From: Acidimicrobiia bacterium
Lineage (GTDB): Bacteria > Actinomycetota > Acidimicrobiia > Acidimicrobiales > Poriferisodalaceae
DNA: 32,787 bases
Assembly (NCBI GenBank): GCA_012960315.1
Contig: DUBN01000014.1
Location: forward strand, 1-32,787
Direction of reading: 5' to 3'
Shown here one piece after another: positions 10,233 through 26,115 of the stretch (positions within the stretch are counted from its first letter, which is position 1; every line of letters starts with the position of its first letter). The notes below the pieces were generated by a model, which searched no databases, was not told where the DNA came from, and worked only from the letters and a program-made list of their open reading frames with translations. Made by a program: the position numbers and the translations under genes.

Positions 10233-10312
10233 GAGGTCTCCTGATGGGACAATTCAAGTGTTACACCCTTCACCGGGGCAGTAGCGTCGTTCTTGAGGGC
10301 GAGGGGGCGATA

Positions 10313-11203
10313 GTGGAAAGCCTGACCAGTGAGCAACGAGAACAATGGTCGACGGACGGCTATTTGCATCTTCATGGAGTGCTAGCTCCCGACGAGGTGG
10401 AGTTCTTTAGTCAAGAGCTAGACCGAGTGCGTTTGTTGCCGGGCTACGAACCCGGCAAAGCTCAACTAGGTCATTACGAGTGGATGGATACCTCGAAGAG
10501 CATCGACACCGATGGCTTTATGGATAGGCGCGACCTCCTCAACTACGGCCAGCACTTTCTTGACCTAATTGATCGCCCCGGATTGTTCGATTTGCTTGTC
10601 GACATCATGGGGCCTCACATCATGTTGTCCATGACTCAGGCCATTGTTCGCCCCTCGACTGACACCTTCCCGGGGTACACCCATACCGATGGGGGTGAGG
10701 GGCTTCGAGAAATTCGGGTTTCCGAGACGTCGCCACCTTTGGCTATGAAAGCGATGTACCTATTGAGCGACGTCACTGGCGAAGATGCCGGCGCCTTTAC
10801 TGTCTTTCCGGGAAGTCATTTGCGCACTTTCCCGTGGCGCCGCGAAGAGCCACCCACACCCAATTCTCCGGGGGCGGTGCAGCTTCCCGGCAGCGCCGGC
10901 GACTGTTATCTGTTCTCTCACTCCCTGTGGCATGGGCCGTCACCTAATTATTCCGGCAAAGCCAGAAAGACACTTCTCTATAACTACGCTCAGATGTTTA
11001 TTCGCAGCTACGACCATGAGGTAACACCGGAAGTTACTGGGCAACTAACACCGCGCCAGAGACGTCTCTTAGGCGATCTTGGTTACGGGTTCCGACCAGG
11101 TTCGTATTTCTACGTTCCTCCTGATCAACAAGAAATGATTTATCAAGACGACCGAGGGCCGTCAGGTTGGACCGGGCCAAGCATCGTCGATCAGAGCGGC
11201 TGA
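10313..11203 (+). CDS. Phytanoyl-CoA dioxygenase (PhyH) family Fe(II)/2-oxoglutarate oxygenase (296 aa)
   Basis: The N-terminal SLTSEQREQWSTDGYLHLHGVLAPDEVEFF is the usual PhyH opening. The iron site is the H-T-D of YTHTDGG with the distal His in SLWHGPSPN; RKTLLYNYAQ carries the arginine expected to bind 2-oxoglutarate. FPGSH marks the central strand. The family hydroxylates CoA esters or small secondary metabolites. I prefer GTG at 10313 because family homology starts there, with GAGGGGG in front. The in-frame ATG at 10244 (TGAGG upstream) would add 23 residues without family resemblance and leave only 11 bases to the divergent gene. Either may be used. Confidence 0.87.
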   Translation: MESLTSEQREQWSTDGYLHLHGVLAPDEVEFFSQELDRVRLLPGYEPGKAQLGHYEWMDTSKSIDTDGFMDRRDLLNYGQHFLDLIDRPGLFDLLVDIMGPHIMLSMTQAIVRPSTDTFPGYTHTDGGEGLREIRVSETSPPLAMKAMYLLSDVTGEDAGAFTVFPGSHLRTFPWRREEPPTPNSPGAVQLPGSAGDCYLFSHSLWHGPSPNYSGKARKTLLYNYAQMFIRSYDHEVTPEVTGQLTPRQRRLLGDLGYGFRPGSYFYVPPDQQEMIYQDDRGPSGWTGPSIVDQSG

Positions 11204-11930: not shown

Positions 11931-12794
11931 TTAAACCACAGGATCTACACCTGCAACGGTCACTCGATGCATAACCCGCCGGCGTTCTGTGATCTCGTAG
12001 GGGCGAAGCCGATGGAGAGTTGATCGGTTATCCCACACAACTAAGTCGTTGGCTTGCCACACATGTTCGTATACAAAACGTTCTTTTGTAGCTCCTACTA
12101 GCACCTCTTGAATGAGTTCACGTCCTTCGTTGTGATCCATTCCTTCAACGTGGGAGACATGTGCCCCCATGTAGAGGGACTTGCGTCCGTCCGGATGTGT
12201 CCTCACCCAGGGGTGTGTAACAGGGGGGTACTTAGATTCCTCTTCGGGACTCATCGGATCCATTCGGCCCGGGTTGTTCGCTCGGCTGTAGACGTAGCTG
12301 TGGACCAGATTCTTATCCTCAATCTCGTCGCGCAGCGATAGCGGAAGGTATTTCAATGCTGCATACATGTTGGCAAACTGAGTTTCACCCCCAGATTCGG
12401 GAACTTCCACTGCATAGAGCATCGTGCACAGGCATGGAATCTCGCGAAATGAGCTATCGGTATGCCATCGCTCAGTTCCCCTCAAAAACACGGCTTGGGG
12501 TTCTTCGAAATCCACCACCGCGCCGTCTTTGCGGACATTGGTCAGATCAAAAATCTCTGGGTGGTCAGGGTGACGCTTATCGGGCTCGGGGAGGATCTCA
12601 AGTTCTCCAAAAGCCCTGCCTAGCTGGACTAGACGAGCGGGGGAGATCTCTTGACCGCGCACCAACAACACACCGTTCTCGGTGAGTCCGCTTCGGAGTT
12701 CATCAATAAGACCGTCGTCTAAGGCGCGCCCGTCGTCAAGACCATGTAGCCGCGCTCCGAAGTTATTGCTGAAGGGTTCACACTCCAAAATCAT
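11931..12794 (-). CDS. TauD/TfdA-family 2-oxoglutarate-dependent dioxygenase (287 aa)
   Basis: The TauD fold is clear. ERWHTDSSFREIPCLCTMLYA gives His111 and Asp113, followed by the GGETQFANMYAAL strand. WDNRSTLHRLRPYEITERRRVMHRVTV gives His261 and the 2-oxoglutarate-binding Arg272. N-terminal ENGVLLVRGQEIS and FGELEILPEPDKRHPDHPEI match the substrate-binding half of TfdA/TauD enzymes. The family hydroxylates carbon next to sulfonate, ether or amine groups. It is the last gene of the operon headed by the P450-UbiB fusion and overlaps the PhyH gene by 4 bases (ATGA). Confidence 0.93.
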   Translation of the reverse strand: MILECEPFSNNFGARLHGLDDGRALDDGLIDELRSGLTENGVLLVRGQEISPARLVQLGRAFGELEILPEPDKRHPDHPEIFDLTNVRKDGAVVDFEEPQAVFLRGTERWHTDSSFREIPCLCTMLYAVEVPESGGETQFANMYAALKYLPLSLRDEIEDKNLVHSYVYSRANNPGRMDPMSPEEESKYPPVTHPWVRTHPDGRKSLYMGAHVSHVEGMDHNEGRELIQEVLVGATKERFVYEHVWQANDLVVWDNRSTLHRLRPYEITERRRVMHRVTVAGVDPVV

Positions 12795-13588
12795 GCTTGA
12801 CCAGAAGCAAGAAGCTCAGCCGAATCGATGGTGACAATCGGGCTAAAATCACGCGCAGCGTAGTATTCGGGCCGTTCAAAGCTTTCGCCTCGATTGTCGA
12901 CTGGGCACACATTGACGTAGAGGAGAAGTCTGCGGAGTGGGCTGATGTTGACGGTCGAACCGTGAACGATCGTCATATCCATAAACACAACTGAGCCTGC
13001 CTGCCCAGTGATGGTCTCCAAGCCGTAATCATCAACCAATCTGATCATCGTCTCATCACTAATGTCATAACGATATTTCGATACCTGATCAAAGTCCGGT
13101 GCGTCGGGATCCACTCGCGCTGTTGATACCAAACCTTCTTGATGGGATCTGGGCACAGCCAAAAGCGGAGCGTTCACCTCTGTGACGTCATCAAGGAATA
13201 CGGCGATCATGATTCCCCTGGGTTCGGGAACTCCATCAACGCGGTGATAGGTCCCGAAGTCTTGGTGCCAAGCGACAACCGATCCGTTTGTTTGCTTCAA
13301 GTTGATCCGCGATTGATGAACGTACACGTCACTGTTCAGGAGAGTGCGACTTGGATTAATAAGGTTTTTGTGCCGGCATAACAACGCGAGCCGCTTATCG
13401 AAAAGGTGCATACCCCAGGAGACGTGCGGTGAACCGTCCGCTTCGCGCCCTACCTCTGGCCCGGGACGTTCTAGTACCTCAAGCGCAGCGTCACTTAACA
13501 ACTGCACTTCTTCTTGATCAAATACGTTTGGGATTACGAGCCACCCGCGGTCTCGGAATTCCTGATCTTGATTATCAGTGAGATCCAT
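12791..13588 (-). CDS. PhyH-family oxygenase resembling ectoine hydroxylase (265 aa)
   Basis: The iron ligands are His108 and Asp110 in VAWHQDFGTYHRVDGVPEPR, with the distal His209 in MTIVHGSTVNISPLRR and Arg219/Arg220 for 2-oxoglutarate. The H-x-D-F-x-T-x-H-x-x-D-G-x-P block followed by VFLDDVTEVNAPLLAVPRSH is strongly reminiscent of EctD. No ectABC genes are present, so another substrate is likely. I chose the ATG at 13588: it is preceded by CAGGAGTT and matches the family N-terminus. It overlaps the aldolase stop by 14 bases and the TauD-like gene by 4, so all three are co-translated. Confidence 0.88.
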   Translation of the reverse strand: MDLTDNQDQEFRDRGWLVIPNVFDQEEVQLLSDAALEVLERPGPEVGREADGSPHVSWGMHLFDKRLALLCRHKNLINPSRTLLNSDVYVHQSRINLKQTNGSVVAWHQDFGTYHRVDGVPEPRGIMIAVFLDDVTEVNAPLLAVPRSHQEGLVSTARVDPDAPDFDQVSKYRYDISDETMIRLVDDYGLETITGQAGSVVFMDMTIVHGSTVNISPLRRLLLYVNVCPVDNRGESFERPEYYAARDFSPIVTIDSAELLASGQA

Positions 13589-14372
13589 TTTCAATAACTC
13601 CTGCGCGGATTTGGTCAATTCCAGTCTGCAATGCCGATGTCATTAAGCCGATGTCGTAGCTATAGCTGATCATTCGAAATCCACGATTAACCCATTCGAT
13701 TCCCGTCTCTACTGAGCCAGCGAGACATGCGGCTGTTTTTCCGTGGGTTTCGCAAGCTCCGAGAATTATATCGATGCCTTCCTGCATCTTCGGGTGAGCC
13801 GTGTCGCCCGGCACCTCCAGCGAAAGCGAGAGATCACCGTGACCTAGGTGGGCGACATCAATTCCGGGTAACGACATAATTTCTTCAGCGTTTGCAAGGC
13901 CCTTAGCTGATTCGATTAACACGCAAACCATTGTTCTGTCGTGGGCGCCGGAGATGATCTCCGGGACAGATTCGGAACTGTAATCATCATGGGCTCCACC
14001 GAACATGGCTCCGCGTTGGCCCGCCGGGGGGTAGCGAGTCCATTTCAGGAATTCTTCAGCTTGCTCGGCGGTTTCACACATCTGGAAAAGCATTCCCATG
14101 GCTCCGAGGTCTAGAAGACTCGCTGTGTACTGGTAACTGGTGTCGGGAGGTCGAACTAGAGGGACGATGTTGAGCCCTCGACACAATCCAAGTTGGATCT
14201 TCATTTCTGCCATGGAGAAGCCGCTGTGTTCCATGTCGTAGAACACGAAACTCGAACCAGCATTTTCGAGGATTTTGGGTAACCCTGCACTTAGGAATTC
14301 GAAGACCATCGTCCCGTAATGAGTTTCGCCACTTGCCAATGCCGTCTTCAAGGGGTTAGTGCGCATGCTCAT
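13575..14372 (-). CDS. HpcH/HpaI aldolase (citrate lyase beta/2-keto-3-deoxy-acid aldolase superfamily) (265 aa)
   Basis: A TIM-barrel class II aldolase of the HpaI type. It shows SSFVFYDMEHSGFSMAEMK with the conserved D-x-E-H, GAMGMLFQMCETAEQAEEF, VLIESAKGLANAEEI with the metal-binding glutamate, and IDVAHLGHGDLSLSLEVPG with the metal-binding aspartate. It splits or forms hydroxy-keto acids from pyruvate or a related keto acid and an aldehyde. It lies 55 bases downstream of the B12-type regulator in the same operon and overlaps the EctD-like oxygenase. A hydroxylation-then-cleavage sequence within the operon is a reasonable inference. Confidence 0.9.
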   Translation of the reverse strand: MSMRTNPLKTALASGETHYGTMVFEFLSAGLPKILENAGSSFVFYDMEHSGFSMAEMKIQLGLCRGLNIVPLVRPPDTSYQYTASLLDLGAMGMLFQMCETAEQAEEFLKWTRYPPAGQRGAMFGGAHDDYSSESVPEIISGAHDRTMVCVLIESAKGLANAEEIMSLPGIDVAHLGHGDLSLSLEVPGDTAHPKMQEGIDIILGACETHGKTAACLAGSVETGIEWVNRGFRMISYSYDIGLMTSALQTGIDQIRAGVIENGSH

Positions 14373-14427
14373 AGTGTCGCAGATTCAGCGAGCAAAATTT
14401 TAGGTGACCACCACGAGAGATTCGGCA

Positions 14428-15240
14428 CTAGCCACTCAATTGCTCCAGTTGTTCGAGCATGGATGGGAATCCGTTCACTGAAATCACTTCTTCAGGCAAG
14501 CTCGCCCAGATACCGCCCACTAGCACCGGCATTTGAGGCAACGATGAATGCACCTGGTTGACGACATCAACAATCACTGATTCAGGTGTTGAACTCACGG
14601 TGCTGAGAACCAGCGCCAGGAGCTGATCGGTCGACTGCGCCGCTTGAATAATCGTGTCGACCGGGCTGTCCGCACCGAGGTTAAAGGGAACAAAACCGCG
14701 ACTACGAATCAGTTCGGTGCAAATTTCGGCCGGTAGCCCATGGGTTTCGAGCGGGGGGCAGGCAATCAATACGCTGCCGCGTTTGCGGCCACGCCGCTGC
14801 GGCAACCCCTGAATACGACCCAATATGGCAGACACAATGCTGGAGGCTCGGTGTTCTTCGAAAACTTGCAACCGCCCGTGCGCCCATTCATCCCCGATTG
14901 AGCGCAAGGCAGGGACCATCACTTCACAGATGACGTCTTCGACGCTCGCTCCTACATCGAAAGCTCCTTGCACTACAGACCAAGAACCCGGTTGGTCGCC
15001 TGTCAACAACGCTTGCAACAACATGCCGGATTTTTTGCCAAGCGCCCAATTACCTCTTCCCGATGGAGCTGGCGCTGTCCGCGAAAGGCGGTCTAGATCA
15101 GATGCCGATACCTGCCAACTGCCGCCGTCTTTTGTAGCGGTCAACTTGCCTGATCGGACATATTTGTAAACGGTCATGTAATGCAGTCCCATCCGTTCCG
15201 CCGCTTCGTTGAGACTGAGTAGCTCATTTGCGCCAGTCAC
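14428..15240 (-). CDS. CarH/LitR-like cobalamin-binding transcriptional regulator, possible light sensor (270 aa)
   Basis: Residues 7-52 form an excisionase/MerR-like helix-turn-helix (LLSLNEAAERMGLHYMTVYK ... GGSWQVSASDLDRL). Residues about 65-145 form a four-helix bundle with Trp119, Glu129 and His130 (EWAHGRLQVFEEH). This is exactly the W-x9-EH signature that cradles adenosylcobalamin in CarH photoreceptors. Residues about 155-270 form a B12-binding Rossmann domain with PPLETHGLP (candidate axial ligand His167), NLGADSP and VLVGGIW. CarH proteins bind DNA in the dark with adenosylcobalamin and release it in light. The GTG start overlaps the P450-UbiB stop by 4 bases (GTGA), so the regulator is embedded in the operon it may control. 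Confidence 0.85.
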   Translation of the reverse strand: MTGANELLSLNEAAERMGLHYMTVYKYVRSGKLTATKDGGSWQVSASDLDRLSRTAPAPSGRGNWALGKKSGMLLQALLTGDQPGSWSVVQGAFDVGASVEDVICEVMVPALRSIGDEWAHGRLQVFEEHRASSIVSAILGRIQGLPQRRGRKRGSVLIACPPLETHGLPAEICTELIRSRGFVPFNLGADSPVDTIIQAAQSTDQLLALVLSTVSSTPESVIVDVVNQVHSSLPQMPVLVGGIWASLPEEVISVNGFPSMLEQLEQLSG

Positions 15241-18176
15241 GTCTTTAGCCCCCTAGTTCTCGGTATTGATACCTTCGAATCAGTCGGTGACAATCGACTC
15301 TTGATGATGTCTCTCCGATTCGACAGATCTCGCCAGGTCAGCACTTCAACGTCGTCACGAATCCCAGCCGCACGCCGGAAAGACGACTCGGAAACTTCAA
15401 GGTCTTGGGCGCCGAGCCCTAATTCGGCTGACACTCTGAACCCGTGCTTAGTTAAAAAACCAGCGCTTATAGTCGAAAATTCTGACAACAAGTCCATGTC
15501 AGGATCCAACTTCTGGATGAACGACGCTAAGTAGGCGAAGTTCTTCACGAAAAGCATCAGTTCTTTGGGTATCCGAGCGCCGCTAACGAGAAGTTCTTTC
15601 AAGAGTTGCTGAAATTCGGCTACGAACTGTTCCTCCGTGAGTTCCAGAGGGTCAAAGTCGACTCTGTTCAATTGAAGCTTGTCAACTAGCTCGTCGATAT
15701 CTGCATCCGGTGGAAACGCTCCGAGGTCACGAACCGCAAGTACCTGTGCGCGCACGTCTCCCGACATCAGACCAGTCACATACCGCAAAAAAGAAAGTCG
15801 CCGCTCGTGATCGAGTCTTCCGACCATGCCGTAGTCCACGAGGCCAATAACGCCATCGTCTGAGATAAACAAGTTCCCAGCATGGAAATCGCCATGGAAA
15901 ATACCGTGGAGTGCGGCACCCTCAAGCAAAGCCTCGACCATGCTTCTGAATGTTTCGCGCGCTACTTGCTTAGAGAGTTTTTCGGAGTCGAGGCGCGTCA
16001 GAGGAACTCCGGTAACGCGCGACATCACAATCACCCGAGCGCTAGTCAACTCAAGGAGCGGCTCTGGAACCGCCCAGCGACCGCGCTCGCCTGTTGCTAA
16101 TGCTCGTCGAATTTCAAAAAGATTCGCTACCTCCAGGCGAAAGTCCAGCTCTTCGGAAATAGTCTCTGCGAAAAGTTGAACCAAGGCTGGAGGGTTAGTT
16201 AACGCTGCGACAGGAATCTTTCCCACAAGGCGAGGGGCGACCCATGCGAGAACACGTAGGTCCCGCACTACCTTTTTATGGATAGCGGGCCTTTGGATCT
16301 TGACGACCACATCTGATCCATTCAAGAGCACGGCATTGTGGACTTGGGCGATAGACGCAGCAGCGAAGGGTTTTTCTTCGAAAGTTGCAAATACGTCAGA
16401 CCTTCGGCCTAAGTCTTTGCGAATTATGCGCCGTATCTTCCTCCAGTTCGATGCTTTGGCCTGGTCCCTACAACGGGAACATTCATCAACAAGCGCTTGA
16501 GGAAAGACACCTTCCGCCGCGGAGATAAGTTGGGCCAATTTGATGTAAGTCGGCCCGAGGCGCTCCGCTGCGATTCGAAGCCGTCGGTAAAGCGACTCGG
16601 TGCGCTGTTGCGGTGATAGCCGTCGATCGATGACTTTCCACGTCAAGAGAGCCCATGCGAACCGAAGCGTTGTGTGGGTCAAGCGAAAAACTGGTGGAAT
16701 CGACGGGGCATTGACCAAGCGGGGAATACCGGACGAAATAGCGCGCCTGGTGACGTGCGCCTCGCGAATCCACTTATTTTCGTAATCAGGAGCTGCTATT
16801 TGATTCGAAGTCAAGAGGGCGTTGCTAGAAGAGTCGAACAACGATTCCAGATTCTGCTGTTCTTCATCCGGTTCATCCAACAATCGAAATTGAAGCTTTT
16901 CAGGTCCCCAAATACCCATAGAAAGTGGTTTCCATACAACGGGTGCTGCTAACTCAAACGCTGGTACAACATCAAGGAAAGCATTCAGGGCTTCTTGGAG
17001 CTCGGCACGTGCAAGAGAAGCTCCCAAGCAGTGGTGCGGGCCCGAACCAAATGCCAGGTGAGGAGCCCGATCTTTTCGATCAATAGCAAATTGAAATCCG
17101 TCATCTGGCTGGCCTAAACCGGCCGCGTGAAGACCGAGCAACACGGTGGTGCCCGCTCGAAAGAACAATTCGTCGACGGTGGTGTCTTCGGTGGCAACAC
17201 GCGCAGTAGTACGAACAGCACCGATGTATCTGAGTGATTCTTCGATGGCCACAGGGACTAGCTCTCGATCCTCCCGTAGACGCCGATACTGATCCGGGTG
17301 AACAGCCAGTACTGCTAACAACGAGCCCAGTTGGTTTCGGGTGGTATCGGTCCCGGCTAAGAGAATCGCCTCAATCATTGCGACGAGTTCGTCGACGCTC
17401 AATCGATCCTCGTCGTAACTAGCTTCGACTAATTCACTTACAAGATCCTGGTGAGGGCAGCGTTTTCGATCAGCTACTAATCCCGTCGCATAGTCATCCA
17501 GTTCCGCCTGAGCCGAAGAAATAGCTTCAAGCCGTCCGAGAACAGCATTTGCGTCGGCATCTAGACCGGAAAAAATTGTGTCTGCCCATTTACCAAACTG
17601 ATCATGATCATCAGCTTCTATGCCGAGCAGTCGACAAATGACTGGGATTGGGTAGGGGCGACAAAAGTCGTCAACTAAATCTCCCTCCCCTCGACTGACT
17701 AGCGGAGCAAGCAAATCTGTGGCGTGGTTGCGCATAAATGGGCGAAGAGATTCGCTGTTAGCTGGGGTAAAGGAGGAACTAACCAACCGCCGCAGACGTC
17801 GGTGATCTTGTCCCTCTACTGATAAGAGATTGGGTCGCATCTGCATCTGCTGACCTGAACCAGGTAAAAGCTCCTGCGCTCGATCGACCAAGGTGTTGAG
17901 GTCTATTTCGCTGGGCGTTTGAGATTGCAGAGAATCGAGGCCCGACAGGACGGTTATCCATGAGGGGTCGCGCAAAATCTGACGGGATTGTTCGTATCCC
18001 ACAATCAAAGGACCAGCAGGCGTCCTGACCGCCCAGTGACCCGAATCTTGCAGAGCTTGCGTGGCACGAATGAGATCAGCGAAGTCGGAAATTTCAAAAT
18101 CAACGAACGGCAAGGACCCGGGTGCGTTGACATCGATGAGATCGGCAGTTTCCTTCATGATCCTCAAGTAATTCAC
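15237..18176 (-). CDS. Cytochrome P450 fused to a UbiB/ABC1 (AarF) atypical kinase (979 aa)
   Basis: One uninterrupted frame holds two complete domains. Residues about 20-435 are a soluble bacterial P450: I-helix AGTDTT (274-279), ExxR at 313-316, and heme loop FGSGPHHCLG with the axial Cys383. Residues about 470-960 are a UbiB/ABC1 kinase-like domain: KLAQ at 546-549 in place of the canonical KxGQ, alanine-rich loop AAAS (605-608), Lys626 in VVVKIQRP, HGDFHAGN (761-768) and DYG (781-783). A linker of about 35 residues (436-470) joins them. UbiB/COQ8 proteins act as ATPases in isoprenoid-lipid metabolism. The start is GTG at 18176, with ATG at 18158 an alternative. It is the first gene of the operon. 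I know of no characterised protein with this architecture. Confidence 0.93.
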   Translation of the reverse strand: MNYLRIMKETADLIDVNAPGSLPFVDFEISDFADLIRATQALQDSGHWAVRTPAGPLIVGYEQSRQILRDPSWITVLSGLDSLQSQTPSEIDLNTLVDRAQELLPGSGQQMQMRPNLLSVEGQDHRRLRRLVSSSFTPANSESLRPFMRNHATDLLAPLVSRGEGDLVDDFCRPYPIPVICRLLGIEADDHDQFGKWADTIFSGLDADANAVLGRLEAISSAQAELDDYATGLVADRKRCPHQDLVSELVEASYDEDRLSVDELVAMIEAILLAGTDTTRNQLGSLLAVLAVHPDQYRRLREDRELVPVAIEESLRYIGAVRTTARVATEDTTVDELFFRAGTTVLLGLHAAGLGQPDDGFQFAIDRKDRAPHLAFGSGPHHCLGASLARAELQEALNAFLDVVPAFELAAPVVWKPLSMGIWGPEKLQFRLLDEPDEEQQNLESLFDSSSNALLTSNQIAAPDYENKWIREAHVTRRAISSGIPRLVNAPSIPPVFRLTHTTLRFAWALLTWKVIDRRLSPQQRTESLYRRLRIAAERLGPTYIKLAQLISAAEGVFPQALVDECSRCRDQAKASNWRKIRRIIRKDLGRRSDVFATFEEKPFAAASIAQVHNAVLLNGSDVVVKIQRPAIHKKVVRDLRVLAWVAPRLVGKIPVAALTNPPALVQLFAETISEELDFRLEVANLFEIRRALATGERGRWAVPEPLLELTSARVIVMSRVTGVPLTRLDSEKLSKQVARETFRSMVEALLEGAALHGIFHGDFHAGNLFISDDGVIGLVDYGMVGRLDHERRLSFLRYVTGLMSGDVRAQVLAVRDLGAFPPDADIDELVDKLQLNRVDFDPLELTEEQFVAEFQQLLKELLVSGARIPKELMLFVKNFAYLASFIQKLDPDMDLLSEFSTISAGFLTKHGFRVSAELGLGAQDLEVSESSFRRAAGIRDDVEVLTWRDLSNRRDIIKSRLSPTDSKVSIPRTRGLKT

Positions 18177-18211: not shown

Positions 18212-18409
18212 ATATCTTCCAGCTTGGGGAGGAAATTAACTCGCCATCATCGTCATGGCCGTACTTCAACTGACCGCTCTATATTCTTGACTCGCGTCGA
18301 CTCCTCGGTGGCTGCGCAATCGCGAAGTCGCCGTCAAGCCCGCGCTTTTCCCAACACTCGATTGCCCCATCGCTACAGTTCACGATACGGCTAACAGTCC
18401 GAGAGCCAA

Positions 18410-19503: not shown

Positions 19504-19809
19504 TGAGTGATCTCCTGAGTAACAAGCGTTCTGGATCACGGTAACCGGTCATTACCTCTAACCGAAATGTTCTCCACAACGCTGGAACTTAGTTCTACGA
19601 AACAGACGGACTTGCAAACAACTTATATTTAGTGCCAATTTATACTTGGAAACGCCTCCTAGTCCCCGGTTTTCCCGGGGTAATGATTCAGAATTACTTT
19701 CTGTCACTGTCCCGGGGAACTCTCGGCCGGCATCTCACGTAATTTGATAATCGCCGCAACCATGATTCTTCGAACTGAAAGAAACCGGCGCACCGCAGGA
19801 GTAATAGCC
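19504..19809. other. Intergenic region with GC-rich repeats that can form alternative hairpins
   Basis: No gene is seen in these 306 bases between divergent genes. CCCCGG at 19664-19669 can pair with CCGGGG at 19675-19680 (loop of 5) or with a second CCGGGG at 19712-19717; the two pairings exclude each other. GTAAT/ATTAC (19680-19684 and 19693-19697) can form a third small stem between them. This is an attenuator-like arrangement in the probable leader of the lipoprotein-MpaB pair. It matches no riboswitch class that I recognise. Confidence 0.3.
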
Positions 19810-20382
19810 GTGTCAACAGAATTCGAATCACTGGGCCCGAAGCGAACTCAATTAAATTCTCTGTTGATGGGATTCGGTGTCTTGACGCTGTTGGCCTCTG
19901 GCCTTAGTGGGTGCGCTCCATCAACTGAAGATCAAATATCGAGCGGGGCACCCATCGAGAGCGCCCCAACCGCTACTCCCCCACCCACTTTGGATGGGTC
20001 CGTCGCCCAAGAAACCACTTCCACATGCGGACCATCGCAAAGAGATGCCCTTCAACACCCAATATCGGAACAGTTACTCGCGTTAAACCGAGGAGACTTT
20101 GCTGCTGCTCGAGATCAGGCTTCACCTTCGTTCAGAGCCATCTTTGATGCCCAGGGCTTCGAAGAAATGGTCCGGTCGGGCTTCCCGTTTTTACTTGACC
20201 AAAGTCCCGCAGTCTTTGGTCGCTGTCGGATCACAAATGACACGGCATCTGTTGAAGTCCGATTCAAAACCCGGAGCCCTATCGCTCTCGTGTATTTCTT
20301 GGTGAAGACACAACATGAGTGGTGGATCGCGGGCGCTTCGCCGGTTGCCGATTCCGTAACAGGCAGAGCGGAGACATCGTGA
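19810..20382 (+). CDS. Predicted secreted lipoprotein (190 aa)
   Basis: A positively charged start (GPKRTQ) is followed by a hydrophobic stretch (LLMGFGVLTLLASGLSGC) ending in the lipobox LSGC, so export and lipid attachment at the cysteine are likely. A Pro/Thr/Ser/Ala-rich linker precedes a domain of about 120 residues (LLALNRGDFAAARDQASPSF ... VEVRFKTRS ... HEWWIAG) with the look of small NTF2/DUF4878-like periplasmic domains. I chose GTG at 19810 because AGGAG lies 8 bases upstream and it places the basic residues just before the hydrophobic core. In-frame upstream starts (ATG 19762, TTG 19744) give an implausibly long N-region. The stop overlaps the start of the MpaB-type gene (GTGA). 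Confidence 0.7.
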   Translation: MSTEFESLGPKRTQLNSLLMGFGVLTLLASGLSGCAPSTEDQISSGAPIESAPTATPPPTLDGSVAQETTSTCGPSQRDALQHPISEQLLALNRGDFAAARDQASPSFRAIFDAQGFEEMVRSGFPFLLDQSPAVFGRCRITNDTASVEVRFKTRSPIALVYFLVKTQHEWWIAGASPVADSVTGRAETS

Positions 20383-21263
20383 AACTTCAGGAAAAGATGA
20401 CTGCCAGCGTGGTTCGCCTGTTCTCCCAAGGAGAACAGCCACTTGCCGAGACTCATCTTTACCCCGAAGACGCTGGATTGTTTGGTCCTGAAAGCGTGAG
20501 CTGGAAAGTGTTGGGCGACGTATCCAGCTTTGCGGGAGGAATTAGAGCGCTGCTGCTGCAAGCACTGCATCCTGAGGTGGCCGCAGGTGTCGCCGACCAT
20601 TCTGCCTACGAGTCAGATCCCCTGGGGAGGCTGAACCGGACATCGCTGTTTGTGACAACGGTTAACTACGGAGCGATGCCGGAGGTCTTCTCGGCAGTCA
20701 AACAAGTACGTCAGGCACATAAGCCGGTTTCGGGCATTTCGCAGCGCGGAATAGCCTATTCCGCGAGCCAGCCTCGCCTCGGTGCTTGGGTTCAAAACAC
20801 ACTTACAGACTCGTTTTTAGATGCCTACCAACATTTTTGTCGCCCTCTCGCAGTTCGTGAAGCCGATCAGTTCGTTTGCGAGCAATCCCAAATCGGCGAA
20901 CTTTTGGGTATTACCGATCTGCCGCAGACTGCTACTGACCTCCGGTCTTGGATCATCGAACATCCTGATCTAGAAGGTTCCACAGCGCTTGACCAAGCAT
21001 GGAAATTCTTGCGCACCCCGCCCCTTCAGCCTGCACAACTTCTCGGCTATCGAATACTCAGAAACGCTGCTGTTGCGACCTTGCCTGTGAGCTTGGCTGA
21101 ACTCGCGAACGCCTCACCTCGCGCAGGTTCCATTTTCGCAGGCCAACGTCTGATCTCATCACTTCGGTGGGCTATGAAGCAGAGTCCGGCTTGGAAAGCA
21201 GCACTGGATCGTTGCGACGCGACGTACGACGAAAGTAAATTTCGATCCTTCGATGACAATTGA
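20379..21263 (+). CDS. MpaB/DUF2236-family oxygenase-like protein (294 aa)
   Basis: Family hallmarks are GIRALLLQALHPEVAAGVADHSAYESDPLGRLNRT, with the conserved H-P and D-P-x-G-R-L-x-R-T, and a later LGYRILRNAAVATLP-like helix. DUF2236 members include latex-clearing protein and MpaB, which are heme-dependent oxygenases. The invariant histidines in the HP and DHS motifs are present here. Substrate and heme content are not proven. I chose GTG at 20379 because it overlaps the lipoprotein stop by 4 bases, and the 20 residues of the longer frame read into the lipoprotein gene. Co-translation with an exported lipoprotein suggests a membrane or lipid-linked substrate. Confidence 0.85.
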   Translation: MKLQEKMTASVVRLFSQGEQPLAETHLYPEDAGLFGPESVSWKVLGDVSSFAGGIRALLLQALHPEVAAGVADHSAYESDPLGRLNRTSLFVTTVNYGAMPEVFSAVKQVRQAHKPVSGISQRGIAYSASQPRLGAWVQNTLTDSFLDAYQHFCRPLAVREADQFVCEQSQIGELLGITDLPQTATDLRSWIIEHPDLEGSTALDQAWKFLRTPPLQPAQLLGYRILRNAAVATLPVSLAELANASPRAGSIFAGQRLISSLRWAMKQSPAWKAALDRCDATYDESKFRSFDDN

Positions 21264-23478: not shown

Positions 23479-24036
23479 TCACGGTCGAAGGCCTTCACCC
23501 CACAAGACATACATCGCTACCAGCGGAGTGTCTCCCGCCTCAACGGTGTGAATATCTGAAGGATGGTTATACAGGGTGGTTTCGGGTTTGACCTCGATCA
23601 ATTTCTCTGCACCTCCATACCTCCAACGGGCGGAACCGGAAATAGTCAGATACAGCTCTTGTGGAGGGTGGTTGTGAACGGGATACGAGCAGTTTTGGTC
23701 GACGTACATGATTCCTACTTCGAGACCTGGCAACTCAAACGCGTCAGACAGAACACATAGAGCCCGGTCGTTTCCTTCGTCATCCCAACGGTGAGACTGA
23801 ACCCACCGCAGAGATGGTGCAATCGCAGCGAACTCACAGGCGCGGGGAGTGTCAGACACGCGGTGGAGGTTCCGTAAAGCCGGCAGCATTTGAGATTCAA
23901 AGGGGATACTCGCAGCTATCTCAATCGCTGAGCGAAATTTCTCTGCTCCCTCCGCAATTTCGCTCCGGTTCGAAAACTCGATCGCAGCATCAGCAGCTTC
24001 AACCAACCAGAGGCGCAGTTCGTCGTCAACAGTCAT
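23479..24036 (-). CDS. Cupin resembling DddQ/DddL-type dimethylsulfoniopropionate lyase (185 aa)
   Basis: A helical N-terminal half of about 100 residues precedes a single cupin barrel. Cupin motif 1 is YPVHNHPPQELYLTISGSARW, with His121, His123, Glu127 and Tyr129; motif 2 ends in HPSDIHTVEAGDTPLVAMYV with His163. As I remember it, the DddQ metal and catalytic residues are His125, Glu129, Tyr131 and His163, and the spacing here is the same. Such enzymes cleave DMSP to dimethyl sulfide and acrylate. Related DMSP-lyase-like cupins without that activity exist, so the substrate is inference. I chose the ATG at 24036 because it overlaps the dsbB stop (ATGA); the longer frame from 24174 would lie within dsbB. 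Confidence 0.75.
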   Translation of the reverse strand: MTVDDELRLWLVEAADAAIEFSNRSEIAEGAEKFRSAIEIAASIPFESQMLPALRNLHRVSDTPRACEFAAIAPSLRWVQSHRWDDEGNDRALCVLSDAFELPGLEVGIMYVDQNCSYPVHNHPPQELYLTISGSARWRYGGAEKLIEVKPETTLYNHPSDIHTVEAGDTPLVAMYVLWGEGLRP

Positions 24037-24590
24037 CCGATACGCCCTTCCCGGAAACGAAACCCAATCAACAACGTCAGGACTAATACAAACACGGATC
24101 CGGCCATCCAGGGAATCGAGATGAATCCGAATTTTTCGATGTAGGTGACAGAACATGGGGTCGTGAGGCTGCACGATTTCGCGTCAGACAACGATGGAAC
24201 TTGCTGAAGTAAGTAATGCCAAATCGATGCTCCTACGCCCATTAGCGATAACGGGACCGCGTAACGACGCACGTGGCGATCGCGAGTGAGCCAAGCAATT
24301 ACGAGAACGACAGCAAGTGGATACATGAAGACCCGCTGAATCCAACACCACCTACACGGACTCAAATCACCAATTTCGGACAGGTACAACGACCCGAGAG
24401 TTGCGACAACGGTGACCAACACCGAGAGCGGCCCAGCTATTGAACGAACACGAATTACTGCCTTGGTTTTTCGACGGTATTGAACGACGGCTAACACGAA
24501 GAGCATCAGCGTGAGAGCATTAATGAACAAAACGCCCCAAGCGAAAAGAGACAGAACACTCGCCACGGTCATTACTCCAATGTGCGTCAC
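24033..24590 (-). CDS. dsbB: Disulfide bond formation protein DsbB/BdbC (185 aa)
   Basis: A four-helix inner-membrane oxidoreductase. The first cysteine pair is in the conserved LSPCRWCWIQRVFMYPL, and the second pair is in AKSCSLTTPCSVTYIEKFGFISIPWMAG in the second external loop. It passes electrons from the thiol oxidase DsbA to quinone and so drives disulfide formation outside the membrane. An ATG at residue 7 is an alternative start. No dsbA is in the window. It overlaps the cupin gene by 4 bases. The cysteine-containing secreted proteins nearby (for example the metallopeptidase at 27773) could be clients. Confidence 0.92.
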   Translation of the reverse strand: MTHIGVMTVASVLSLFAWGVLFINALTLMLFVLAVVQYRRKTKAVIRVRSIAGPLSVLVTVVATLGSLYLSEIGDLSPCRWCWIQRVFMYPLAVVLVIAWLTRDRHVRRYAVPLSLMGVGASIWHYLLQQVPSLSDAKSCSLTTPCSVTYIEKFGFISIPWMAGSVFVLVLTLLIGFRFREGRIG

Positions 24591-24615: not shown

Positions 24616-26115
24616 CTAAGGCGCTGATGAACTACGCAGCGGTGACTTCCCAACTGGGATCCACATAGCCATTGCGCTCAACGTCGTGGCGACCAAGAAA
24701 ACCGCCAGAATGCGCTCGTAGTAGGGCAACGCTTCAACCCCAGCATTGGTTGTTAACAACGCGAAAACCATGGCAGTGCCGATAGCACCCGACGCGTATC
24801 GCAGAGTGCCGAAAAGGCCGTTGGTCTCGGCAAAGAACTTTTCTTCCACCCACTCCAACGCCACGCCGTTGAGCAAGGGAATACTCATTCCCCATCCCAG
24901 CCCATACATCACGATTCCCGGTGCGAAATCAAACCAAAAATTGACTTCACTGCCTAGTTGCGTCAGATGCCAACTGACCGCAACCATTTGAAGCATGGTC
25001 CCAAATCGGCACAGCCCGATCGAACCAATGCGGTCCGCCAAACGACTAAATAGAAGAGTCGAGCAACCCGCGGCTACCGGGCCAAGGGTTATACCCAACC
25101 CAACTTGAAGAGTCGAAAAATTCCAGACGTTCTTCATGAAAAGTGGCCAAACAATCCAAAGCGGCGAGGAAGTAATCGAACCGAGGAAATTGACCGTATT
25201 GGCAACCAACACCCCACGTCGACGCAACAGATGCAGATTAAGGAGCGGTTCCGGGTGCCGCGAGGAGTTCACGATGAACAACCCCAAAGCACCGCCGCCA
25301 ATAAGGGCGACTGTGATTGTGATCGGTGAAGAGTAACCCCAGACACGACCCTGCATAATGGCTGTCACTACCGCGGCCACAGCAATTGTTCCAGCTCCGG
25401 CACCGACGAGGTCTAACCGTTGTTGATTGGAAGGAATCGGTAGTTCCTTCAACATTTTCCAGCCGCCCCAAAACATGAGCAGCGCGATGGGAGCACTCAC
25501 CAGGTAAACAGCCCGCCAACCAGCGGCCGCGAGTATGAACGCGGAAGCAGCCGGTGCCACCCCCGCCCCTAAAGGCCCTGCCGCCGACCATAATCCGACC
25601 GCTGTTGAACGTCTTGATTTTGGGAAGAGGGGCAGCACGAGAGCGAGTGAAGCCGGAAGCAATGCTGCTCCAGCGATGGCCTGTAAAACTCTACTCAGAT
25701 TTAGCGTGAGCACAGTTGGAGCAACAGCAGAAAAAACCGCCGATAATGCGAAAAGGAGAAGCCCTAGTTGGAAGATTAGTTTTCTTCCAATGCGATCGGC
25801 GAGACGCCCGGCGAGAGGCATGAAAGCCGCAGTTCCGATGAAAAAGCCTGCTACGCCCCAACCCACGTCAGCGGCCGTGGCACCAGTGAATCCTGCTTGG
25901 ATGTCGTCTAACGCAATGTTGGTTGCTGTGCTGTTGAAGCCGACGAGCACAGTAGCTAAGGACGTAAGAAACAAAGCCCGCCAGGCGCGTGGAGATACCG
26001 TCTCAAGTTTTGGCCGGGTCGAAGAAGACTCGGTGATATCCGGGACGGTTGGGGTTCCATCAGCGAGAGCGACTCTCGGCACTGTGGAAAGCACGACAGG
26101 TATCTGTCGACGCAT
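24616..26115 (-). CDS. MFS transporter, DHA2/EmrB-QacA-like drug exporter type (499 aa)
   Basis: A multi-spanning permease of the length expected for 14-helix MFS exporters. Helix 1 is followed by NIALDDIQAGFTG (the N-x-A-L-P/D-x-I region of EmrB/QacA proteins), motif A is GRLADRIGRKLIFQLG, and motif C-like glycines are in GLWSAAGPLGAGVAPAASAF. A 45-residue hydrophilic, Ser/Thr/Pro-rich extension precedes helix 1 and may indicate a later true start, though no better ribosome site is obvious. It probably exports a hydrophobic compound by proton antiport. The upstream region contains a long nested inverted repeat that could be an operator. Confidence 0.88.
   Translation of the reverse strand: MRRQIPVVLSTVPRVALADGTPTVPDITESSSTRPKLETVSPRAWRALFLTSLATVLVGFNSTATNIALDDIQAGFTGATAADVGWGVAGFFIGTAAFMPLAGRLADRIGRKLIFQLGLLLFALSAVFSAVAPTVLTLNLSRVLQAIAGAALLPASLALVLPLFPKSRRSTAVGLWSAAGPLGAGVAPAASAFILAAAGWRAVYLVSAPIALLMFWGGWKMLKELPIPSNQQRLDLVGAGAGTIAVAAVVTAIMQGRVWGYSSPITITVALIGGGALGLFIVNSSRHPEPLLNLHLLRRRGVLVANTVNFLGSITSSPLWIVWPLFMKNVWNFSTLQVGLGITLGPVAAGCSTLLFSRLADRIGSIGLCRFGTMLQMVAVSWHLTQLGSEVNFWFDFAPGIVMYGLGWGMSIPLLNGVALEWVEEKFFAETNGLFGTLRYASGAIGTAMVFALLTTNAGVEALPYYERILAVFLVATTLSAMAMWIPVGKSPLRSSSAP

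Follow-up and report, generated by a model that had tools for sequence, protein, structure and literature searches.

Why would a cell make a cytochrome P450 and a UbiB/ABC1 atypical kinase as one protein, and what could such a protein do? The question is raised by contig DUBN01000014.1 (GenBank assembly GCA_012960315.1) of an Acidimicrobiia bacterium of the Poriferisodalaceae, whose 32,787 analysed nucleotides we call the window. An open reading frame (ORF) at 15237-18176 on the minus strand is free of stops and encodes 979 residues, whereas the plus strand over the same interval is filled with stops. As the initial annotation of this DNA had claimed, the single frame joins a complete P450 to a complete UbiB/ABC1 domain, with Pfam matches to both and recognisable relatives in other genomes. 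The P450 domain (residues ~20-433; 16878-18119, minus strand), recognised by profile, motifs and structure comparison, is followed by a variable linker (residues ~434-505; 16662-16877, minus), delimited by selection analysis and predicted structure, and by the kinase-like domain (residues ~506-965; 15282-16661, minus). Every signature named in that annotation is present: AGTDTT (274-279), the ExxR element EESLR (312-316) and heme Cys383 in the first half, and AAAS (605-608), Lys626, HGDFHAGN (761-768) and DYG (781-783) in the second. The annotated start codon is GTG; Met7 at 18158-18156 is an alternative, the alignment of most relatives beginning at residue 7 or further in. Both domains belong to known families, and their combination is apparently undescribed: no account of a P450-UbiB/ABC1/AarF fusion was found among the papers listed by literature searches that extended neither to subscription papers nor to databases of domains such as InterPro.

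The N-terminal half, a bacterial P450 monooxygenase, lacks a reductase domain and should therefore need outside redox partners. Pfam p450 (PF00067) matches residues 109-401 with an E-value (E) of 1.4e-21 and 77.2 bits against a cut-off of 22.8. Motifs were counted in those 41 of 45 collected fused proteins that exceed 900 residues; L045 dropped out in clustering and L094 in a motif filter, and L092, L093 and L095-L100 were not taken. In all 41, Cys383, E312/E313, R316, D277 and T278 are unchanged. An AlphaFold2 model of the whole protein, a prediction that had been proposed along with the initial annotation, was built on an alignment of 38 sequences and reached a mean predicted local distance difference test (pLDDT) of 77.8 and a predicted TM-score (pTM) of 0.77. 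Its weak stretches are residues 79-113 and, in the linker, 441-446 and 448-458 with low pLDDT, and a linker helix is predicted from residue 464. Compared with PDB structures, the modelled P450 half adopts the expected fold (best Z 41.8, root-mean-square deviation 2.2 over 366 aligned residues to 7y97_A), with AurH, MycG, OleP and PikC among its nearest structures. The comparison list was filled by P450 chains, and the absence of the UbiB half from it says nothing about the fold of that half.

For the C-terminal half, Pfam ABC1 (PF03109) matches residues 569-809 (E 3.4e-53; 180.7 bits, cut-off 22.9), and the structures matched include the mycobacterial-type 5yjz (E 4.2e-22) and human COQ8A and COQ8B chains. 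Lys626, GDFHAGN and Asp781 are unchanged in the 41 long copies, all of which keep GDxHxGN, DxG, the catalytic lysine and the alanine-rich loop; the loop reads AAAS in 40 of them and carries A606S in one. In UbiB proteins this AAAS loop stands where a glycine-rich loop is otherwise found. Another motif of UbiB proteins, KxGQ, reads KLAQ at residues 546-549 in 41/41, K546 and Q549 being kept and the glycine replaced by alanine. Among the unfused relatives that were read, KLAQ occurs in 4/4 of the same family and KLGQ in 9/12 outside it. The NCBIfam equivalog for ubiquinone synthesis (TIGR01982) spans residues 509-898 and does not reach its cut-off (260 against 487.55 bits); therefore a role in ubiquinone synthesis is not to be assumed.

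The fusion recurs well beyond the window. The genome collection holds 34 further loci, 30 of which match nearly the whole query and four a part of it (L042, L043, L045, L048). Nearly all are titled as metagenome-assembled genomes (MAGs), L025 being one not so labelled, and because these loci and the separately collected further stretches partly share genomes, not all of them are independent. In five of seven pairs, the ratio of non-synonymous to synonymous substitution rates (dN/dS) is 0.017-0.083 for the P450 half, 0.031-0.059 for the UbiB half and 0.109-0.208 for the linker; in the other two pairs dS is saturated and gives no ratio. Both halves are thus under purifying selection, and the linker is less constrained. 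A chance ORF is excluded by the 34 loci together with the low dN/dS in both halves. In the two domain trees, of 60 and 58 rows, the fused rows group together, and the one row among them that was counted as standalone, L046, comes from a gene broken up into ORFs that lie in two frames. These trees are midpoint-rooted, carry a long-branch warning, and were made after identical and short domains had been dropped; L046 aside, the standalone rows number 16 for UbiB and 13 for P450. The fused proteins of this sample have one origin, and the simplest reading, with few standalone rows sampled, is that a single fusion event occurred and has been retained since. An assembly artefact is ruled out by the 34 loci from separate records, the domain trees and the dN/dS values. 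The initial annotation would have given up its fusion had homologues always been split or an artefact come to light; among the collected copies only L046 is split, and its view of a real fusion with two seemingly active halves is borne out by the loci, motif conservation, trees and substitution rates.

Regarding its distribution, we compared 99 Acidimicrobiales genomes, 39 from the window's family (f1) and 60 from other families of the order. Of the 39, 26 carry the fusion, the window genome counted: 17 near full length in one match (G036 with an internal TGA), seven as two matches in one open frame and two cut by contig ends. In four genomes of the family (G007, G012, G013, G014) the match is confined to the UbiB half. 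None of the 60 others has the fusion, and in 46 of them the best match covers the UbiB half alone (E up to about 1e-99). Nor was it seen in the 395 other genomes of a 396-genome sample of the phylum, in which up to two candidates per genome were scored at a limit of 1e-60, and a plasmid search gave 17 records with a match, none covering 80% of the query. The same architecture, whose search in complete genomes had been suggested at the outset, does recur, within one family of mostly marine actinobacteria and nowhere else in these samples. In the window genome the other 14 matches all fall in the P450 half, so that no UbiB besides the fused one was found. In four further genomes of the window's genus (g1; G001-G004) the best match is a P450 paralogue and no UbiB is among the matches listed, a list cut short yet complete for the best match of each genome; UbiB may have been lost in these four of six genomes, of which G001 and G003 are about 80% complete. 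In an outgroup record (L077:8440-11188), an unfused P450 gene, its product 45% identical to a fused copy, precedes an ABC1/UbiB-type gene of the same orientation by about 115 bases, and a thiolase gene lies farther on.

What the protein might be for is hinted at by its neighbour, which the initial annotation had not covered. At 14428-15240 on the minus strand lies a gene for a CarH-like regulator with an HTH_17 domain, two B12-binding domains and a Wx9EH motif, recognised by profiles, motifs and structure matches. The first 4 bases of this gene are also the last 4 of the fusion gene, an arrangement that points to co-transcription of the two in part of the family. A CarH-like gene adjoins the fusion in 15/34 loci. 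Among 37 genomes of the family it occurs in 15 of 24 with the fusion, always adjoining it by position, and in 0/13 without; nine fused genomes lack it (Fisher p 2.3e-4, without correction for kinship). The best PDB matches of the regulator are 8c35, 8c31 and 3whp ('Probable transcriptional regulator'), which we take to be Thermus CarH, followed by CarH 5c8a (E 3.4e-13) and 5c8d (E 8.9e-13) and cobalamin-binding proteins (8j2w and others). The Wx9EH motif is found in 16/16 orthologues, Trp119, Glu129, His130 and His167 are invariant in 18 regulator sequences, two of them from outgroup genomes, and GxxW (as GDEW) and EH are present as well. Wx9EH is described as crucial for CarH photoreceptor activity (PMC9304148; papers cited by PMC number were available in excerpt and are quoted to that extent). 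The regulator may thus work like CarH, yet we do not file it as CarH. An alignment of eight intergenic stretches upstream of the cluster gave nothing convincing as a conserved operator.

In relatives the pair is part of a larger cluster with a photolyase, likewise new with respect to the initial annotation. In L021 a flavin adenine dinucleotide (FAD) amine oxidase gene (c4) is followed by P450-UbiB, CarH-like, SDR-DUF2867 (c3) and DUF1295 (c1) genes, with acyltransferase, photolyase and sigma-70 factor genes on the opposite strand. Within 8 kb of the fusion, at least one of FAD oxidase, DUF1295, SDR-DUF2867, CarH-like and photolyase genes occurs in 19/34 loci, in more than one gene order (DUF1295 in 17, CarH-like in 15, SDR-DUF2867 in 14, FAD oxidase in 13 and photolyase in 13); in L040, L041 and L049, for example, photolyase, FAD oxidase and DUF1295 genes are arranged differently. 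Of this cluster, the window keeps only the fusion and the regulator. At 18241-18246 it has a junction where L016, a close relative with a fusion 92% identical to the window's, holds about 1.75 kb more, comprising most of the cluster gene c15 and, short of its final bases, the whole FAD amine-oxidase gene c4. At a second junction, 14372-14428, relatives hold SDR-DUF2867, DUF1295, acyltransferase, photolyase and sigma factor genes between the regulator and an aldolase gene, in the order of L021. The L016 genes after the regulator (SDR-DUF2867, DUF1295, acyltransferase start) had no DNA match in the window genome in a search without a positive control. Relocation of cluster genes within that genome is unsupported, by protein searches for the FAD oxidase and DUF1295 and by DNA search only for SDR-DUF2867 and the acyltransferase. 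The window MAG is 96.55% complete, so that absence from it is not proof; the missing genes may reflect real loss or an assembly matter.

Several other genes in these surroundings are worth recording in their own right. In one group of loci (L017, L019, L020, L025, L028) the fusion has a tRNA-editing gene and genes like cysS and mshC as neighbours, according to the domains read from L017, and no light-cluster genes. An MPAB/Lcp-type oxygenase gene (20319-21263) and a DUF4864 gene (19744-20382) recur in 10 and 9 compared records, respectively, the window included. Four genes of non-heme iron dioxygenase type lie within 14 kb (6-695, 10244-11203, 11931-12794 and 12791-13618; 2OG-FeII_Oxy_2, two PhyH and TauD), and the C-terminal part of an ORF at 23479-24174, which overlaps a DsbB-like one, matches the dimethylsulfoniopropionate (DMSP) lyase family (E 8.4e-13).

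Which substrate would such a protein act on? Phytoene/squalene synthase (SQS_PSY) is found in 0/37 genomes of the family by a search that was positive in 7/14 control genomes, and a carotenoid or a squalene/hopanoid made through this enzyme is rejected as the substrate for the family. DUF1365 (UfaO type) is likewise found in 0/37, and a strong CMAS (UfaM type, E<1e-40) in 4/37, with none among the 24 fused genomes. In contrast, the menaquinone prenyltransferase MenA is present in 34/37 genomes and in 23 of the 24 fused ones. Of the lipid classes tested, menaquinone is thus the only one whose key enzyme is present. The initial annotation had tied UbiB to isoprenoid-quinone assembly and proposed a dedicated hydroxylase of a lipid or isoprenoid. 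The hydroxylase is plausible yet unproven; the isoprenoid part is narrowed by the synthase and MenA counts. Of the substrates considered, menaquinone or another membrane lipid appears most likely. Precedents come from two sides: CYP128A1 hydroxylates menaquinone-9 (PMC7404182), and COQ8B with ATP raised CoQ1 production about five-fold and phosphorylates COQ3, no phosphorylated coenzyme Q (CoQ) intermediates having been detected according to the excerpt (PMC7615680). In the outgroup genome G053 (L115:5596-13882) a homologous CarH-like gene stands beside CMAS/UfaM-type, DUF1365/UfaO-type, FAD oxidase and photolyase genes, possibly a light-controlled furan-fatty-acid locus in the Acidimicrobiales. 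This locus suggests that regulators of this type act in the photo-oxidative modification of lipids within the order; a link to the fusion would be by analogy.

Because MenA is present and CYP128A1 and COQ8B offer precedents, we infer a lipid oxygenase with UbiB as its feeder. The best explanation, held tentatively and at a little less than an even chance, is that the P450 oxygenates a membrane lipid, perhaps menaquinone, which the UbiB half handles, and that some members of the family place the gene under B12-dependent light control. The bifunctional protein would stem from one fusion event within a single Acidimicrobiales family. Light would split adenosylcobalamin in the CarH-like regulator and thereby open the operon; the UbiB half would bind a very hydrophobic membrane substrate, and its ATP cycle would lift or release this substrate so that the linked P450 could oxygenate it; the whole would belong to a response to photo-oxidative stress. 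The architecture, its conservation, the single origin in the sample, the neighbouring genes and the motifs are observed; light control is suggested, and the class of substrate and its ATP-driven handling are inferred. A more specific form, in which a light-switched and ATP-assisted enzyme pulls menaquinone from the membrane and feeds it to the P450, and the long-disputed role of UbiB would be to deliver buried lipids to a hydroxylase, seems to us rather unlikely.

A number of observations weigh against a light-controlled lipid oxygenase. Light control is not general across the family. No light-cluster gene is found in the available flank of 15/34 loci (several with little flank on one side), namely a group of nine (L031, L033-L037, L043, L046, L047), the group of five with cysS- and mshC-like neighbours, and L048, where the contig stops at the gene; the same holds for the available flank of 11 further g4 loci. 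Besides, the group L039-L041 and L049 has the photolyase without a CarH-like gene, and protein searches of the window genome returned neither FAD oxidase nor DUF1295, the same searches being positive in G005. The regulator itself departs from CarH in several respects: its DNA-binding domain is HTH_17, it scores 66 bits against the 400 of the CarH equivalog NF052513, and its weaker PDB matches are methionine synthases (2.6e-6 and weaker). Its B12 motif, ETHGLP-x42-STV-x26-GG, is one residue longer in spacing than the published D/ExHx2G/P-x41-SxT/V-x22-27-GG, as given in the excerpt, and the regulators of L032 and L044 are without the G/P. A GxxH element, part of the light-response signature (PMC11796333), is absent from 16/16 orthologues, which read LETH in the window and SETH and alike elsewhere. 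No redox-partner gene lies beside the fusion, and its function looks dispensable because the best match is a P450 paralogue in four of the six genus genomes (two of them about 80% complete).

The protein phosphorylation by COQ8B (PMC7615680) also weighs here, as it fits an account in which the UbiB kinase/ATPase would modify or assemble partners or the P450, and the P450 would act on a small soluble substrate with no lipid hand-over. The undetected phosphorylated CoQ intermediates of the same excerpt and the conserved kinase-like residues speak for this account. It has to contend with the alanine-rich AAAS loop, kept in all long copies save the one with A606S, and with the association of UbiB relatives with lipids, which is partly general background and partly taken from that excerpt; on balance we consider it unlikely. 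Two enzymes joined by chance and retained for co-expression only would explain why the linker is variable and why gene neighbourhoods differ between clades. Against such a union speak L046 as the only broken gene among the collected copies and the side-by-side P450 and UbiB-type genes of the outgroup L077, and it appears quite unlikely.

Detoxification or tailoring of a polyketide- or macrolide-like compound, by a macrolide-binding ATPase and a macrolide-type P450, is suggested by three findings: the UbiB half matches the macrolide-binding ATPase MABP-1 (E 1.8e-23), AurH, MycG, OleP and PikC are near neighbours in structure, and an EmrB-type efflux gene of the major facilitator superfamily at 24616-26115 is kept in some relatives (c31, five records with the window). 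However, the MABP-1 score is 83 against a cut-off of 800 bits, macrolide-type P450s are among the bacterial P450s most often solved, and no polyketide synthase is found among the window and cluster genes scanned. We judge this explanation improbable. A furan-fatty-acid route, in which the P450 would replace the oxygen-inserting UfaO (DUF1365) in a light-controlled ufa-like cluster, draws on the gene set of L115 and on the insertion of O2-derived oxygen by UfaO (PMC7380195). Here the first enzyme is missing too, as strong CMAS is absent from all fused genomes just as DUF1365 is from the family, and c4 gives no BLAST match at E<1e-6 to the UfaD-like oxidase of L115; with these three results the route is disfavoured and very improbable.

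Should the fusion indeed be a lipid oxygenase, it would bear on an old open question, namely what UbiB/COQ8 proteins use ATP for. In the fusion a UbiB domain is linked to an enzyme whose product can be measured, and the role of UbiB could be read as oxidised lipid by means of point mutations in either half, and it offers a new route to finding what UbiB proteins do. The fusion also ties a UbiB protein, in the window genome the only one found, to a B12/photolyase gene set in marine bacteria.

Among known systems, P450 BM3 and the P450-peroxidase/dioxygenase CYP5619 are multidomain P450s like this one; unlike in these, the partner here is a kinase-like ATP-binding protein and not a redox or oxygenase domain. 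With soluble bacterial P450s of the CYP107/109 kind the fusion has the complete fold and catalytic motifs in common, and it differs in carrying a C-terminal UbiB domain. COQ8/UbiB and ABC1 proteins of solved structure (4ped, 9tvk, 5yjz) share the ABC1 domain, the alanine-rich loop, Lys626, HGDFHAGN and DYG, whereas the fusion is joined to a P450, has KLAQ for KxGQ and stays far under the UbiB equivalog cut-off. CYP128A1 resembles it by possible function, as a precedent for a P450 acting on a long-chain quinone (PMC7404182). Finally, the CarH/LitR light regulons with photolyase (PMC9304148, PMC9758184) have, according to the excerpts, a CarH B12 regulator with Wx9EH as found here, and the LitR regulon holds photolyase, SDR and FAD oxidoreductase genes like those near the fusion (PMC9758184); they differ from the present locus in its HTH_17 DNA-binding domain and in its P450-UbiB gene, which takes the place of carotenoid or ufaM genes.

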